Shown here: positions 42,477 through 51,332 of the stretch, one piece after another
How the letters are laid out: every line of letters starts with the position of its first letter
How positions within the stretch are numbered: the first letter of the stretch is position 1
Assembly (NCBI GenBank): GCA_016935665.1
Contig: JAFGQN010000134.1
Location: forward strand, 1 to 64,000
Reading direction: 5' to 3'
Source: Deltaproteobacteria bacterium
GTDB taxonomy: Bacteria; Myxococcota_A; Polyangia; JAAYKL01
DNA: 64,000 nt
The notes under the pieces: model-generated
Told to the model about the DNA's origin: nothing
The model's database searches: none
What the model saw: only the letters and a program-made list of their open reading frames with translations
Position numbers and translations under genes: made by a program

Positions 42477-43835
42477 TCAGGCCGTGACAATGGGGGCTTC
42501 GGTGGTATTGATGGCGTGAATCTGTTTACTGCGCTCCCATATTTTTTCCAGTGGAATATACTCCCCCCGATACCCCATCTGATTCACAATGTCCTTAAAG
42601 CTGCTGGACATTTCCTTGCTGTTGAACGCGCTTCGCGTTTCGGTATCCACTGTTGCTGTTTTGGGATCATGGCCCCGCAGCAACGGATTGGCCACAATGC
42701 CGATAAGCGACACCGCCTTGTTTTCCAGCGATGGGACAAGGTTATTGTTTCTATCCACCAGGTCGCCATTGGCATACACCTTTTGCGAATCGTGAACATA
42801 GTATGCAATGGAATCCGGCGCCATGGCAATGGGGGTGGGACGATCGGACAGCCATGCCAGAAGTGATTCATTCTGGTACATGATGGTGGCTTCGATGAGT
42901 GTATCCGGATTAATGATGTTCACCTGCCCCACATCAAATCCGCCACCGGTACTGATGCTGACACATCCTTTTTCAAAAATGCCAAAGAACATGTGATACG
43001 CCTGCAGTCCCTGGCTGTTTAAAAAATCGATAACCGCCTGTATATTGCCGTTGGGTTCTGCCAGATGCCGTCCCACCAGTCGACTCAATTCCAGTGTGCC
43101 CTCGATGCGAATGGCATTCTTCATCTGATTGTGATCCATTGCCCAGATGCCGAGCCCCGCAGCCTCCTGGAAGGCGGCGAGTCCCAATATGGGTCTGGCC
43201 AGTTTTTCAATGGCTTTGGCCATGTAATCCTGCTTTTTCCACCAGTGCTGGGTGCCGGATTGATGGAGCAGATTCAAATCAATGACAAACCCGTCGGCAT
43301 TGGCGAGGATGGTGGGATCAGTGGACGTATTGGCCGCGGCATATGTAAGCATGGTCAATTCGGGCACCGCACGCTGTGCGCCATCGGCATCAATGACTTT
43401 CAATCCCAGTTTGCTGGCCACTAAACAGGGCACAATGGAACTGATGGCGCCGATTTCAACGGGCAGCAGATACGTAAGGGTCTTGCCCTGAGCGTACAAA
43501 TCCCGCTGCATCGCCCGGGTGGCATTTACTGCCGCCTCCGGATATTTCAGTTCCCCCACCGCTTCCGGCGCCCCGATATAGGCCACCACGGCGGCAACTT
43601 CTTCCGAGTCTTTGCGGAGCGCCTCTTTCAATGTGACCACTTCCACCTGCGCGTTATCATAGTATTCACCGGTCTTGAAATGATGAAGCATCTTTTGAAC
43701 AGAACTCCAGTTTCCACCTCCGCCGCTGGCAAGCAACGTGGCTCCCCTGACGATGTCGTACAAATCACTGGCATGCAGTGTCTGATTTCGAGGTTGAAAT
43801 CTGTTTTTGTTTCTTCTGGATTTAGTTGATGACAT
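42477..43835 (-). CDS. DUF917 / S-methylthiohydantoin desulfurase-like protein
   Basis: 452 residues from ATG 43835, preceded by AGGGGGGACAA. Sequence hallmarks: LASGGGGNWSSVQKM near the N terminus, AYIGAPEAVGELKYP, LLPVEIGAISSIVP, KVIDADGAQRAVPEL and GGGFDVGQVNI. These match the DUF917 family (hydantoinase-like two-domain proteins, some annotated S-methylthiohydantoin desulfurase). The basic N terminus (SSTKSRRNKNRFQPRNQ) is longer than I expect. Its start overlaps the stop of the sigma-54/TPR activator by 14 nt, so it is translated with its likely regulator. The substrate is unknown. Confidence 0.82.
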   Translation of the reverse strand: MSSTKSRRNKNRFQPRNQTLHASDLYDIVRGATLLASGGGGNWSSVQKMLHHFKTGEYYDNAQVEVVTLKEALRKDSEEVAAVVAYIGAPEAVGELKYPEAAVNATRAMQRDLYAQGKTLTYLLPVEIGAISSIVPCLVASKLGLKVIDADGAQRAVPELTMLTYAAANTSTDPTILANADGFVIDLNLLHQSGTQHWWKKQDYMAKAIEKLARPILGLAAFQEAAGLGIWAMDHNQMKNAIRIEGTLELSRLVGRHLAEPNGNIQAVIDFLNSQGLQAYHMFFGIFEKGCVSISTGGGFDVGQVNIINPDTLIEATIMYQNESLLAWLSDRPTPIAMAPDSIAYYVHDSQKVYANGDLVDRNNNLVPSLENKAVSLIGIVANPLLRGHDPKTATVDTETRSAFNSKEMSSSFKDIVNQMGYRGEYIPLEKIWERSKQIHAINTTEAPIVTA

Positions 43836-46134
43836 TTGTCCCCCCTGAAAGAAAGTTGGCGGCAACTTTCGAGTTGATCATCTGCAGATAATTTCCCGCG
43901 CGGCTCACCTCGCTGCATCTGCCGTCGTGCTCGATACGATACGCAATCTGCGGCAGCAGTTGAAGGGCCTGATGAATGTTTCCATTATGCATATGCAGTT
44001 CAGTCAGATAGTTGGCACACATTAATTCGGCAAACAGAGCTCCGGTTTGTCTCGACAATGCCAGCGCCGTTTCAAAGGAATTCATGGCGTTGTCCGGCTG
44101 TGCCAGCGCCAGTTCGATTTTTCCCCGAATGCAGTACAATTCCGGCAAATAGGGCCGTTCCGAATGTGTCAGGGCAATGTCCAGCCCACAATTGACAATA
44201 TCAAAGGCCTCATCCAGCCGATTGTTGCCAAGTTCGATATTGGAAAGGACACACCGCACCAGGGACTGGAACCCCAACTCTCCATTGCGCGCCATATGAT
44301 TGAAAAATCCATCTCGCACCATTTTTGCGCCCGCTTCCGGGTCACCGCTTTTCGCAATGGCGTTGCCCTTGAAAATCATGCCCACACCTTCGTAAAAGAC
44401 AAACTGGTGATTCCTGGAAACGTCGATGAGCCTGTCCGCATAATCGGCGGACTTCTCAATATCACCGAAGAGGTACTCCAGCCAGGCGCCGGTTTGAAAG
44501 GAGATGGCAATGCTGAAGGGATGATGTAAATCCCTGGCATACGTATCCAGCTGTTCGAAGCTGCGTCTGGCGTCCTGCAGTCGTCCGGTATGAAACAGAC
44601 AGAGCGACTGACACATCATATAAAACACATAGGGATCCTGACCGTGATGCTCCAGCAGCTCATTGTCGAAGTGATAGCGAAAAATAAACTGATTCAAATG
44701 GTTGAAACAACCATTGAAATTGCCCATCCAGAAATGGGTATTGGCCAAAGCAATATGCGCCTGAAGCACAATCTGCTCATTGTTCATCTCGGTGCCCTGT
44801 TGCAGGTACTCTCCGGCAAAGGTCAACGCTTCATCGAGCTGCAGACTCAACAGCAAAGTGGACCACAATCCGAACGCCGCCGGAGAAATCTGTCCCTCTT
44901 TATGGTGTTTCAGGTTTTGCGATATGGCTTCACGATACACCTTTACCGCCTCGTTGTCTGCCCATCCGGCCACGCTGCGCAGGCAAATACACTGTTTAAG
45001 CAGAATCCGGGATTTCAGCTCCGCCAGCTCGTCGGATTGACTTGCTGTATCTATCAGATAGAGCGCACGCCGGAACAGTTGAGCGGCCGCCGAATAGTTG
45101 GATTTTGCCATTTCCTCTATTCCACCGGTAAAAAGCAAATGAACCTGCTCCGTACTCTGCGCCAGATGCTGCAGTTTTCGCTCGATGACTTTGCGATGAA
45201 CGCCAAGCAATCGGGCGGCAGCGCTTTTATTATCGCTGCTGTGGGCCAACGCCTTTTGAACAAGTCCCAATTCCACTTTTTCCAGCCTGTTGTTCAGGGG
45301 CAATTCCAGAATCTGGTCCAGCAGAGATGCCAGCTGAGAGTTGGCATCTGGCAGCACTGTGGGGGCCGCGTGAATCTGCACCTGTTTTAACGAAATATTC
45401 TTTCCTTCATTCAGTGTAACGATGCGTTCGACCACATTGCGAAGCTGACGAATATTTCCCGGCCACCTGGACGCACACAGATACGCCATGGCATCTGTGT
45501 CAAACAGAACATCCCGATGGGCCAGATGCAAAAAAAACTGAACCAACCCAGGAATATCTTCCCGATGTTTTTCCAGTGCGGGAATGTGAACATGAAACAC
45601 ATTCAGTCGATGGAACAAATCTTTGCGGAAACGGCCCTCTTTGACCATCGTCTCCAGATTTGCATGGGTGGCCGCGACCACGCGACCGGTGAATTGCTGA
45701 TGGCGTGTGCTGCCCACAGGTCTGAACGTACGGGTATCCAGTACTCGCAGCAGCCGCGTTTGCAGTAAAAGGGGAAGCTCGCCAATCTCATCCAGAAACA
45801 GTGTCCCCTCCGCCACCTGCGATAAAAGCCCGATATGGTTGGCCACCGCACCGGTAAATGCGCCTTTTTCATGGCCAAACAACTGGGACTCAATCAGGTT
45901 TTCCGGAATGGCCCCACAGTTTAAATCAATGAGCGGCGCGCTGCTTCGGTTTCCCCATTTGTGAATCAGTCGAACAATATGCTCCTTGCCCGCACCGGTT
46001 TGCCCCGTCACCAGCACCGCATTGGGAGTACTGCTGATCTTTCGAACAAATTGGTAAATTTCCTGCATAATGCCGGATTCACACAAATGAAAGACGGGTT
46101 TGAATTCCGGCGTGCTCGCCACTGACTGCTTCAT
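43822..46134 (-). CDS. Sigma-54 activator with C-terminal TPR array
   Basis: 770 residues from ATG 46134, preceded by GGGGGGACGC, a ribosome site almost identical to that of the DUF917 gene it overlaps. Layout: short N terminus with no receiver or GAF, AAA+ domain with Walker A TGQTGAGKE (about 43-51), loop GAFTGA (about 91-96), Walker B TLFLDEIGE, then a Fis-type HTH (SAAARLLGVHRKVIERKLQHL, about 305-325) and about 400 residues of helical TPR-like repeats to the C terminus. The TPR region in this position replaces the usual N-terminal sensor, as in some MalT/STAND-like regulators. It presumably activates sigma-54 promoters and probably the DUF917 operon it belongs to. Confidence 0.88.
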   Translation of the reverse strand: MKQSVASTPEFKPVFHLCESGIMQEIYQFVRKISSTPNAVLVTGQTGAGKEHIVRLIHKWGNRSSAPLIDLNCGAIPENLIESQLFGHEKGAFTGAVANHIGLLSQVAEGTLFLDEIGELPLLLQTRLLRVLDTRTFRPVGSTRHQQFTGRVVAATHANLETMVKEGRFRKDLFHRLNVFHVHIPALEKHREDIPGLVQFFLHLAHRDVLFDTDAMAYLCASRWPGNIRQLRNVVERIVTLNEGKNISLKQVQIHAAPTVLPDANSQLASLLDQILELPLNNRLEKVELGLVQKALAHSSDNKSAAARLLGVHRKVIERKLQHLAQSTEQVHLLFTGGIEEMAKSNYSAAAQLFRRALYLIDTASQSDELAELKSRILLKQCICLRSVAGWADNEAVKVYREAISQNLKHHKEGQISPAAFGLWSTLLLSLQLDEALTFAGEYLQQGTEMNNEQIVLQAHIALANTHFWMGNFNGCFNHLNQFIFRYHFDNELLEHHGQDPYVFYMMCQSLCLFHTGRLQDARRSFEQLDTYARDLHHPFSIAISFQTGAWLEYLFGDIEKSADYADRLIDVSRNHQFVFYEGVGMIFKGNAIAKSGDPEAGAKMVRDGFFNHMARNGELGFQSLVRCVLSNIELGNNRLDEAFDIVNCGLDIALTHSERPYLPELYCIRGKIELALAQPDNAMNSFETALALSRQTGALFAELMCANYLTELHMHNGNIHQALQLLPQIAYRIEHDGRCSEVSRAGNYLQMINSKVAANFLSGGTNVIN

Positions 46135-46188
46135 GCGTCCCCCCACAACGAATTGCGCGTGACCCAGGCTGTTTAAATAAACGCTTTG

Positions 46189-47434: not shown

Positions 47435-48592
47435 TCACACTCCGCCCGCTGAGGCATTTTTGAATTCATCGATGAGACTGCCTTCGTAATCGTTGCCAAT
47501 CCCAAAATAAATGTCCTCTTTTGAAATAACCGTATCTACGAGAAACGTATTCTGACCATTGAGAAACACCGGATTTTCAACACATTGCTTTATCAACGGA
47601 TGAAGCTGTGTAGGCATCGTGTCGCGATTTTGGTGAAAACGGGTGAACCCCACATGCAAAACAGCATCGCTGCGCCACGAAAAAGTGAACCGTACCATCC
47701 CTGCACCGGCACATTGGGTGCTGAGTCTGGGAGACACCGTTTCAAACGCCAAATCATTGAGTAAATCGTCGTACTTGTCCGGTGCAACACACGCAGGTTC
47801 ACGAATCATTACATACAAATCCAACGTACCATTTTTCAAATCGAACCCGATGAGCGATATTCGGGACAGTCCCGCTTTTCTCAGGTAGCGCAGGTTCTTC
47901 TTCACGGCCAACGGCAGGTGAGATAGCCCGGGGAAAGACGCAATCGGTTCGGGAGAAAGAATATACCAGACCTTGAAAATGCCCGCTGCCGTATCCAGGC
48001 CAATGCCATATCCCAACAGCTCAAATGCTTGCCGCACCTCGTCATTCAGCGAAACCATTGCCTGTTCGACGGGGGCCACGGCACAGGCTTTCAATGCCCA
48101 GCTGAATGGATCGTCGCTGTGGTCGCGCATCAGCTCAAGAAAGTTAACACTTAAAAACCGGCTTGAATTCAGGTTCGTTGTGGTTTGGATAGAGATGACC
48201 GGACTGCCGAAAAAATCAATCACGGCGCCAAGCGCCCGCACGGTGCTGTTGCGGTTTACCGTGGCATCCAAATCGCGGCCCAGACGCACCAGAGTGTTCA
48301 TCAACGCCTCAGGATCTGATTTTTGCTTTTGCACATAAACGCTGTCGTTGTACCCGCTGATATCCACCCCCATGGACGACAGACTGGAGGCAATTCGATG
48401 GCGATACGCCGTTGGCACCGTTTTGAAAATACCCTCCACAATATCCGTACTGGAGATTTCAGATTTGCCTTTGCCCATGCCGCTTTTTTCCGCCGCCCGA
48501 CTAATGGCTCTGGCGGCCACCAGCTGCATCGGCAAGGGGATGCTGCGAACAATATTCTGGTACAGCCGCCTGGCACGAGCTTCCCATTTCAT
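47435..48592 (-). CDS. ABBA aromatic-prenyltransferase-like protein, copy 1
   Basis: 385 residues from ATG 48592, GGGAGG about 10 nt upstream. The first 60 residues (MKWEARARRLYQNIVRSIP then AARAISRAAEKSG) match the C-terminal helical domain of protochlorophyllide reductase (PCP_red type). The rest resembles the NphB/CloQ aromatic prenyltransferases: DLDATVNRNSTVRALGAV, SRFLSVNFLEL, a central GIGLDTAAGIFKVWY, then GFDLKNGTLDLYVMIR, VRFTFSWRSDAVLHVGF, HPLIKQCVENPVFL and a C-terminal YFGIGNDYEG. The alternation of strand pairs fits the ten-stranded PT barrel. If correct, it would attach a prenyl chain to an aromatic acceptor. A paralogue follows immediately. Confidence 0.6.
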   Translation of the reverse strand: MKWEARARRLYQNIVRSIPLPMQLVAARAISRAAEKSGMGKGKSEISSTDIVEGIFKTVPTAYRHRIASSLSSMGVDISGYNDSVYVQKQKSDPEALMNTLVRLGRDLDATVNRNSTVRALGAVIDFFGSPVISIQTTTNLNSSRFLSVNFLELMRDHSDDPFSWALKACAVAPVEQAMVSLNDEVRQAFELLGYGIGLDTAAGIFKVWYILSPEPIASFPGLSHLPLAVKKNLRYLRKAGLSRISLIGFDLKNGTLDLYVMIREPACVAPDKYDDLLNDLAFETVSPRLSTQCAGAGMVRFTFSWRSDAVLHVGFTRFHQNRDTMPTQLHPLIKQCVENPVFLNGQNTFLVDTVISKEDIYFGIGNDYEGSLIDEFKNASAGGV

Positions 48593-48785
48593 CTGACATT
48601 TCCTCCCGGCACAATTAATTTTGCATTGGTTTGATCTATCACCGAACAATAGAAAAATGCAAAAAAAAAGAGTCCTTCTGCAAACAGTAAGCGTGGTGCG
48701 CGACGCGCTTGAACCTTTGAACAAGCGATATGGAGCAGTTGTTTTGCAATTCTAAAACGGAGACTCTCGTGAAGATGAGAAACGG
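48593..48785. other. Interval between paralogues
   Basis: 193 bases, AT-rich in the middle (a run of nine A at 48661). Too short for a gene. No clear terminator; the second paralogue may have its own promoter here or be cotranscribed. Confidence 0.4.
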
Positions 48786-49946
48786 TCAGATACCCGCCCG
48801 ACAGGCTCTTAAAATCACTTCCTGCATGTCACCACTATAGTCATTCTCAAGCACAAAATAATGATTTTCCCTCTCAACCGCTGTAGTTAGAATGTATTTT
48901 GGGGAACAGGGGGAGAATTCAGGCATCCGGATGCACTTGTCCAAAAAAGCGTCAAATTCAACCGGCACGGTGTTTGGGGCGGAATGAATGGTAGTGAAGC
49001 ACACCTTTTCAATCGCATCATTTTGCCAGGAAAATGTAAAATGCACCACTCGGGATAAAGCACAATGGGTCAGCAGCGAATCAGATATATTACTCAAATG
49101 GAGTTCGTTCAAAAGGTCACTGTATTTTCCGCTCAACTCTGAAGACGGGCAGCGAATCAGCGCAAACAGACTGACGGTGCATTCGCGCAGGTCGAAGCCA
49201 AGCATTGAAAACCGGTCCATGTCAAAACGATTCAACACCGAGCGATTTCGTTTGACCGCCGCGGGCAAATGCTGCAATTGCAATAAGGCGTCCATTTGTA
49301 CAGGCGGCAGGGCGACACGGAGTATGCTCACGCCGGTGGTCACGTCCAGTGTTGTGCCGTATCCCACTATTTCCAGATTCATTTTCATTTCTTCAAACAG
49401 GGACAGCAGAGGTGTGTCGTCCTCCGGGAGGAATCCTTTTAAAACGGCTTTGGTAACGGGATCCGGTGTCTGATGTTGAACGGTGTCCAGATACCGGACA
49501 AAAAGTGTTTTGGGCATTCGGTCATTGGATGCCGCACCAATGGCGATAGGAGCACGGGTAAAGTAGTTACTGTATGCTTCGAGAATGGCTCGGGTTTTCA
49601 CTTCATCCACCGCCACGCCCAGTTGGTTTCCAAGAGTTATCAGTGTTTTCCACAACTGTTTCAAATCTGTCTGAATCACCGACAACCGCTGACTTCCGTG
49701 CAGATATGGCTTACAGTCCACACCAAGCGCAGTCAGATTGGCCACCGTCCTTGCCTGAAACGATTGCGGCACCACCTCAAAAATCCCAGACAGTACATCG
49801 GCCAGGCTCACCCGCATGGCGCTGCGACTGGCAGCGGTTTTTTCTGCGGCCCAGCTGATGGAGGGCGTCGCTATCAGCTTTTGTGGCAGGGGAATATTTT
49901 TAATCACATTTTTATAAAGCGCCCTGGCATCGGGGTCCCATTTCAT
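48786..49946 (-). CDS. ABBA aromatic-prenyltransferase-like protein, copy 2
   Basis: 386 residues from ATG 49946, AAGGA 8 nt upstream. Clear paralogue of copy 1 in the same order: PCP_red-like N terminus (MKWDPDARALYKNVIKNIP), then GVAVDEVKTRAILEAY, KTLFVRYLDTV, GYGTTLDVTTGVSILRV, GFDLRECTVSLFALIR, VHFTFSWQNDAIEKVCF and ENDYSGDM. Differences in substrate-pocket positions between the copies (for example the Arg/Lys-rich strand ends) suggest different acceptors. Prenyltransferase activity and acceptor are inferred from family resemblance only. Confidence 0.6.
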   Translation of the reverse strand: MKWDPDARALYKNVIKNIPLPQKLIATPSISWAAEKTAASRSAMRVSLADVLSGIFEVVPQSFQARTVANLTALGVDCKPYLHGSQRLSVIQTDLKQLWKTLITLGNQLGVAVDEVKTRAILEAYSNYFTRAPIAIGAASNDRMPKTLFVRYLDTVQHQTPDPVTKAVLKGFLPEDDTPLLSLFEEMKMNLEIVGYGTTLDVTTGVSILRVALPPVQMDALLQLQHLPAAVKRNRSVLNRFDMDRFSMLGFDLRECTVSLFALIRCPSSELSGKYSDLLNELHLSNISDSLLTHCALSRVVHFTFSWQNDAIEKVCFTTIHSAPNTVPVEFDAFLDKCIRMPEFSPCSPKYILTTAVERENHYFVLENDYSGDMQEVILRACRAGI

Positions 49947-50279
49947 ATTGGCGTCCTTATTCGGTGAAGCGAGCAACGATAACAGTCCAGATTCTGCTCT
50001 CCTGGTATATCTGATATCCAGGTATCGCCTCGGCAGCCCAGGAAAGGTAGTATACGTTCCTGTTTCGCAGCTGCAAAATGTACTTTAGTCATAAATTTTT
50101 TGTTGGGAGCGCATATAGCAGCAAGTGGATAAAATTGCGCCGTTTTTTTATTCATGACAAAAAATTCATTGGTGCAAATCGAAAATGTTAAAACACTGTA
50201 ATAATCGGTAACCGCATCTCAACACCGCTGGACGCCTGTAACTGTTGGGGTGCGTCATTCAATTTATGGGAGGTACTCA
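49947..50279. other. Divergent intergenic region
   Basis: 333 bases between copy 2 (minus) and the ceramidase-like gene (plus). AT-rich around 50140-50200 with no frame of note. It should hold both promoters. GGGAGG immediately precedes the ceramidase-like start. An inverted repeat GATATCTGATATC-like stretch is visible near 50008-50023 (ATATCTGATATC), a possible operator. Confidence 0.45.
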
Positions 50280-51332
50280 GTGAAAAAACATCCGGTTGTT
50301 CGTTCCCAAACAAAGCCGAACCAACCCAAACCACCCGTTCCCCGGCAGCAAGTCCCGCTGGCCGCATCTGGCCAATTCGCCGCCGCCATCATCCGCCGGA
50401 TGATACACATTGTCCTATTGACGGGGTTGGTGATGGCATTGTTTTGCGCCTGCAGCACCGTTCCGTGCACGTCCGAAAAAGAGGCGGCGGTTCAAAGCAA
50501 AGAACCGCTCACATGGTATCGATTTGACGCCGCTCAACCTATGCATGGTTTTTGTGAAGAACAGGTCTTTGGCAAAAAACAGTGGGTCGCCGAACCGTCC
50601 AATTTTCTGTTTTCGCTCACCACTCTCTTTTTGGGGCTGTTTGCAGTATTGCGTGCCCGGCGCACCACCATGGCGTTTCAATTTGTATTCAGTTTTCTGG
50701 CAGCATATGGCGCATTTTCCGCAGTCTACCATGTGACCATCTACAACGGTATTTACCGAATGATGGACGTGGCTCTCACCTTTGTGCAATCGTTTACTAT
50801 CGTGATGCTTATACACTCACTGTATCTGTATCGACTGAAAGTGAGCGATACCGACGAAGAGAAAAAGCGTTACCGCTACCTCACCAATCTGTGCACCGTG
50901 CTGTTTACGCTGTACCCGGGTATCGTCCACGTCACCGGCGAAAGCAGCGCCAATCCCTGGGTGGCCTGGCTCACCTTTGATTTACTGTGGATTCTCATCG
51001 CCACACTGCTCATTCTCATTTGGAAAAGACGAAAAAAATGGCCCGGCGCCACTGGTGATGAAACAGCGTTCAAATTGGTATGGTCCATAATTGCCACCTG
51101 CGTCATCGCCTACACCGGCTGGTGCCTCGACAAGTTCCTGTGCTCCTGCCAAACCCCGTGGCCCGCCTGGCTCCACCTCCACGGCATCTGGCATCTTTTT
51201 ATGGGCTTATGCTTTTATCTGATGATCAACCTGAGCCGCTTCCTCAACGCCCACGAATACGGCTACCGCCCGGTACTGCAACATTTCCCGCAGAAGGGAA
51301 AAATACGCATTCCGTTTGTAGAGTGGGAGTAG
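50280..51332 (+). CDS. Ceramidase-like (CREST family) membrane protein
   Basis: 350 residues from GTG 50280 (GGGAGG 6 nt upstream; an earlier in-frame GTG lacks one). After a cytosolic basic tail, a hydrophobic segment with Cys residues (ALFCACSTVPC), then about seven membrane helices. Alkaline-ceramidase signatures are in place: FCEEQ...WVAEPSNFLFSLTT, YGAFSAVYHVTIYNG (His about 160), the Asp of MMDVALTFV, and the C-terminal WCLDKFLC with HLHGIWHLFMG (two His). These form the Zn site of ACER-type hydrolases and PAQR/Per1 relatives. It could hydrolyse a ceramide-like N-acyl lipid or be a related membrane hydrolase. Divergent from the prenyltransferase-like pair. Confidence 0.75.
   Translation: MKKHPVVRSQTKPNQPKPPVPRQQVPLAASGQFAAAIIRRMIHIVLLTGLVMALFCACSTVPCTSEKEAAVQSKEPLTWYRFDAAQPMHGFCEEQVFGKKQWVAEPSNFLFSLTTLFLGLFAVLRARRTTMAFQFVFSFLAAYGAFSAVYHVTIYNGIYRMMDVALTFVQSFTIVMLIHSLYLYRLKVSDTDEEKKRYRYLTNLCTVLFTLYPGIVHVTGESSANPWVAWLTFDLLWILIATLLILIWKRRKKWPGATGDETAFKLVWSIIATCVIAYTGWCLDKFLCSCQTPWPAWLHLHGIWHLFMGLCFYLMINLSRFLNAHEYGYRPVLQHFPQKGKIRIPFVEWE

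Follow-up and report, generated by a model that had tools for sequence, protein, structure and literature searches.

The locus examined here raises the question of whether two tandem genes, whose products resemble aromatic prenyltransferases of the NphB/CloQ type and carry an additional helical domain at the N-terminus, still encode prenyltransferases. The PT barrel, the fold of these enzymes, has been described as exclusive to the aromatic prenyltransferases of secondary metabolism (PMC3227686, 2011). The two genes lie in a window of 64,000 nucleotides, the whole stretch of DNA that was analyzed, from an uncultured deltaproteobacterium, and are organized as follows:

48786..49946, minus strand: P0002, the upstream gene, 386 aa, with an N-terminal DUF2621-C/PCP_red-like domain and a PT barrel
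49698..49946, minus strand: residues 1-83 of P0002, helical DUF2621-C-like domain
48789..49676, minus strand: residues 91-386 of P0002, predicted ten-stranded PT barrel in which the diphosphate residues are replaced
48593..48785, no strand: intergenic gap between P0001 and P0002, 193 bp
47435..48592, minus strand: P0001, the downstream gene, 385 aa, with the same two-domain architecture as P0002
48344..48592, minus strand: residues 1-83 of P0001, helical DUF2621-C-like domain

Both open reading frames of the originally predicted tandem pair are thus present, each with the N-terminal helical block, and their MKWE/MKWD starts are preceded by AGGA/GGAGG-type ribosome sites. The two proteins are paralogues, 33% identical end to end with a single gap, and no third copy was found in their own genome (G000, 8.16 Mb in 249 contigs). 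The 193-bp gap contains no promoter-like match, and the terminator-like scan of the region was weak (9 found vs 4.5 expected).

PF11468, the Pfam family of the barrel, has a match in 4 of the 318 genomes of the class, three of them belonging to this genus and the fourth being G043. A search with the fused alignment in 379 evenly drawn genomes of the phylum retrieved nothing beyond the own genome and the G043 protein, which is unfused; a scan of contigs from 84,980 species, which reaches close relatives only, returned the G002 record alone, and a plasmid search gave matches to the barrel part only. The fusion was found in one genus only and may exist elsewhere. One sister species, G002, has one intact copy (L014), and the other, G001, has one gene in two halves at contig ends, which are separated by an insertion sequence that duplicated its CTAG target and has AGCGGCGAYCRGTTTRAA as inverted ends (L004 1-130 and L006 1-90, contigs C72 and C411). 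The end of this insertion sequence is also present where contigs C9 and C493 start, and joining the flanks of the insertion yields an open frame that reads through. We therefore rejected a tandem pair in G001, the two fragments being a single broken gene, and the pair is seen only in the genome of the window. Neither the pair nor its neighbors were conserved in the related genomes: the sister species carry single copies and share no neighbors. The three intact open reading frames (P0001, P0002 and the G002 copy) are 385-389 aa long and 33-39% identical, and have in common their starts, W3, IP18-19 and the AAE, GYG, FTFSW and NDY motifs.

The claim of an NphB/CloQ-type barrel was confirmed by both family and predicted fold. 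PF11468 (PTase_Orf2) matches the pair over residues ~102-378 with 69.2 and 81.5 bits, well above the cut-off of 22, and sequence searches of solved structures match FamD1, AmbP3, EpzP, AmbP1 and NphB. The AlphaFold2 model of P0002, ligand-free and with a mean pLDDT of 76, was built from an alignment of three sequences. Its ten strands follow the expected order, so that the ten-stranded barrel of alpha-beta-beta-alpha repeats, whose lack would have spoken against the original prediction, is present in the model; it spans residues ~91-384. Compared with AmbP3 by Foldseek and VIA-align, the model gave a Z of 33.6 over 290 residues at 2.5 Å, and the top of the structure search was occupied by AmbP3, FamD1, AmbP1, NphB, EpzP and CloQ (Z 27.5-33.6, aligned length ~273-292 residues, rmsd 2.4-3.0 Å). 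Judged from its sequence, P0001 also has a PT barrel. Absence of the aspartate-rich NDxxD motif is a criterion for aromatic prenyltransferases of the PT-barrel kind (PMC3227686), and direct reading found the motif in neither P0001 nor P0002.

Among known systems, the cyanobacterial hapalindole prenyltransferases AmbP3/FamD1 and AmbP1, also of PF11468, share the PT-barrel fold with residues 91-384 (Z 31-34) and the DYxG motif at the last strand with the genus proteins, but they are ~310-335 aa long without the helical N-domain, have a full diphosphate site and take indole metabolites as substrates. The Streptomyces ABBA prenyltransferases NphB, CloQ and EpzP have fold and Pfam family in common with the pair; unlike the pair, they usually stand in natural-product gene clusters, and EpzP and NphB retain the basic residues that bind diphosphate. 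A plain aromatic-prenyltransferase homologue is encoded in another family of the same class (genome G043, L005 1399-2373, minus strand). Its product belongs to PF11468 like the pair, with which it is ~18-24% identical, and its best PDB match is AmbP1; it lacks the N-domain and, in contrast to the pair, has a complete site.

The residues that bind diphosphate in EpzP are R49, K117, R232, K283, N172, Y174 and Y220, and this site is only moderately conserved between EpzP, NphB and CloQ (PMC3485228). We scored six of these positions, leaving out Y220, which is variable among active enzymes. The positions were mapped with two MAFFT sequence alignments, and misalignment is unlikely because the columns lie within strands, with little or no gapping nearby. 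At R49/K117/N172/Y174/R232/K283, in this order, the residues are:

P0001: Q K D Y H G (Q136, K207, D258, Y260, H313, G364)
P0002: G I S F K V (G137, I208, S259, F261, K314, V365)
G002 protein: G Q S H Q L
G001 protein (two fragments): R R H F H A
G043 protein, FamD1, AmbP1 and EpzP: R K N Y R K
NphB: S K N Y R K

R232, K283 and N172 are gone from all four gene copies in the genus, and the equivalents of K117 and Y174 are kept in P0001 alone; no copy keeps more than two of the six residues, and P0002 and the G002 protein keep none. The basic diphosphate-binding pocket that characterizes PF11468 and the NphB/CloQ aromatic prenyltransferases is thus not found in this genus. Among the comparators outside the genus, K117, R232 and Y174 occur in 17 of 17, N172 in 15 and K283 in 14. 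As a counterpoint to the loss of the site, the alignments place in P0001 a retained K207, W209 (the equivalent of W119) and Y260, and in P0002 a lysine, K314, at the position of R232, which leaves some positive charge.

Three PF11468 homologues on Streptomyces plasmids (L058, L063 and L068) carry N or E at K283, and two of them also S at N172, with K117, R232 and Y174 kept in all three. They possibly form a subgroup of their own in which the diphosphate site is altered. Given these homologues, partial loss of the site may be tolerated.

The pattern of conservation within the barrel was compared at strand positions assigned as inward or outward by strand parity. In seven comparators, identity was higher at lumen-facing than at outward positions (0.44 vs 0.29), whereas the genus showed the opposite (0.29 vs 0.43). 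The inward minus outward difference was -0.13 in the genus and +0.14 in the comparators, with a permutation p of 0.003 for sequences that are non-independent; when the six site positions were left out, the p of the same test, on the same non-independent sequences, was 0.04. Inward strand positions bear 2-3 K/R in the genus and 3-7 in the comparators, and identity within the genus is 33-65% in the N-domain vs 20-47% in the first half of the barrel. The lower inward than outward identity suggests that much of the common constraint on the barrel interior is gone, whereas the scaffold and the N-domain have retained their own.

Residues 1-83 of P0002 form four helices in the model. This block had been taken to be PCP_red-like; its helical nature and the resemblance to PCP_red stood, but it is most closely related to the C-terminal domain of DUF2621, and PCP_red is one step removed. 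All four copies of the genus align without gaps to positions 56-136 of PF11084 (DUF2621), always in the C-terminal half of the model, with 14.2-23.4 bits, below the cut-off of 27.7. When a profile was made from the DUF2621-C proteins of this class and scored against 2000 shuffles, it gave 25-33 bits on the four N-domains vs 7.9 for the best shuffle, and profile-profile comparison with hhalign related the N-domain to DUF2621-C with a P of 1.8e-11 over 80 columns. DUF2621-C is in turn related to PCP_red (profile-profile P 5.9e-9). PCP_red (PF08369), the C-terminal domain of BchB/ChlB, has the same W-x-x-x-A...IP...E layout as the N-domain, and its Pfam model gave 12.4-18.6 bits in three copies and none for P0001 (cut-off 32.5). 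Direct membership in PCP_red found no support, as a profile from sequences of the phylum scored no better than shuffles.

The Foldseek search with the N-domain returned no significant structure match; of the solved PCP_red domains (2kru and 2l09), 2l09 appeared at rank 24 with an E of 0.72. VIA ranked AAA+ lid-type helices best (Z ≤8.5), which are a common arrangement, and we did not retain a named fold. DUF2621 matches above the Pfam cut-off are found in 16 of 308 class genomes, where other proteins end in this domain, whereas in the pair it precedes a PT barrel at the N-terminus. In the DUF2621-C proteins L039-L054, a conserved stretch, W-R-x-L-(S/T)-E-D-E-(Y/F)...P-x-L-P-K, precedes that domain. 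A literature search on DUF2621, on PCP_red as a domain and on PT-barrel pseudoenzymes found nothing relevant in the collection searched.

The genes around the pair include the following:

42477-43865, minus strand: S-Me-THD-like ORF (PF06032/PF20906), which overlaps with the sigma-54 activator ORF at the end of the latter
43822-46146: ORF of a sigma-54 activator with TPRs
50250-51332, plus strand: ceramidase-like gene (PF05875, 76 bits), divergent

A further small neighbor, which has no Pfam match, is in our reading a YkvA-like protein. No natural-product biosynthetic genes were recognized beside the pair in the window, and none of the window neighbors (YkvA-like, sigma-54 activator, S-Me-THD-like and ceramidase-like) is found beside the G002 copy, which by our reading adjoins an HD-domain-like gene and small heat-shock-like genes. 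The ceramidase-like gene of the original prediction does exist, but its link to the pair did not hold: we rejected it as a conserved partner because in G002 the gene is on a different contig and in G001 none was found. With the diphosphate-binding residues lost and no biosynthetic genes recognized beside the pair, the proposed pathway for a prenylated metabolite or lipid found no support.

We nevertheless considered whether the proteins are still aromatic prenyltransferases, which would bind diphosphate through other residues or a metal, or of which one paralogue would be active and the other accessory, the product being a prenylated metabolite. The retention of a whole PT barrel in the P0002 model, the K117, W119 and Y174 equivalents of P0001, the moderate conservation of the site between EpzP, NphB and CloQ (PMC3485228) and the existence of homologues without K283 are all consistent with this, and the chief rival is that P0001, given its K207, W209 and Y260, may still work as an enzyme. 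However, none of the four copies retains R232, their residues at K283 are G, V, L or A, none of the six residues is left in P0002 or the G002 protein, and a biosynthetic neighborhood was not recognized; we consider continued prenyltransferase activity rather unlikely, and prenylation of a metabolite possible but not favored.

The eroded active-site residues, the poorly conserved lumen positions and the G001 copy, into which an insertion sequence has inserted with duplication of CTAG, would also fit genes in decay, descended from an ancestral fused prenyltransferase and drifting without function under relaxed selection. This appears improbable, since neutral frames are not expected to remain open at 33-39% identity and yet three intact ones of 385-389 aa persist with conserved starts and motifs, and since conservation is higher in the N-domain than in the first barrel half. 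PCP_red, to which the helical domain is related, is part of a tetrapyrrole enzyme, protochlorophyllide reductase, and a new type of enzyme could be envisaged in which the helical domain would help to bind a donor other than a diphosphate, or a cofactor. In line with this, H226, R245 and H321 (P0002 numbering) are conserved in the genus and not in the comparators, and D252 and D369 are retained at inward-parity positions, as is H302 in two of the four copies. On the other hand, not one genus-specific inward position is both polar and invariant across the four copies, and H321 is outward by strand parity, which makes a new enzyme very unlikely.

On balance, and with modest confidence, we favor the explanation that the pair are genus-specific paralogues whose PT barrel, of the AmbP/NphB type and fused to a DUF2621-C/PCP_red-like domain, has lost the prenyl-diphosphate site and has been reused. 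This reading builds on what was observed: the sequence family and the predicted fold, the identity of the domains, the lost residues and an inward/outward conservation that is reversed. As the fold is kept and the donor site lost, we infer that ordinary prenyl transfer has been lost as well: the barrel would no longer bind DMAPP or GPP canonically, and the pair, as far as its residues indicate, probably no longer attaches isoprene units to aromatics. The barrel might then bind a small molecule of hydrophobic or aromatic nature, or serve another protein as a partner, and the N-terminal helical domain could form a lid or offer a surface for docking. With the gene duplicated in tandem, the two products could pair as a heteromer or have different ligand specificities. 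More tentatively, and with somewhat less than even confidence, we propose a PT-barrel family without prenyl transfer that was recruited, together with a chlorophyll-reductase-related helical domain, for ligand binding or regulation.

Annotated automatically by PF11468, the pair would be labeled as aromatic prenyltransferases, which would prompt the search for a product that may not exist. A fold that is kept, a donor site that is lost and a fused domain that is gained would together represent a natural case of a repurposed PT barrel and, if true, the reuse of this barrel for ligand binding or regulation would contradict the description of the fold as exclusive to the aromatic prenyltransferases of secondary metabolism (PMC3227686).
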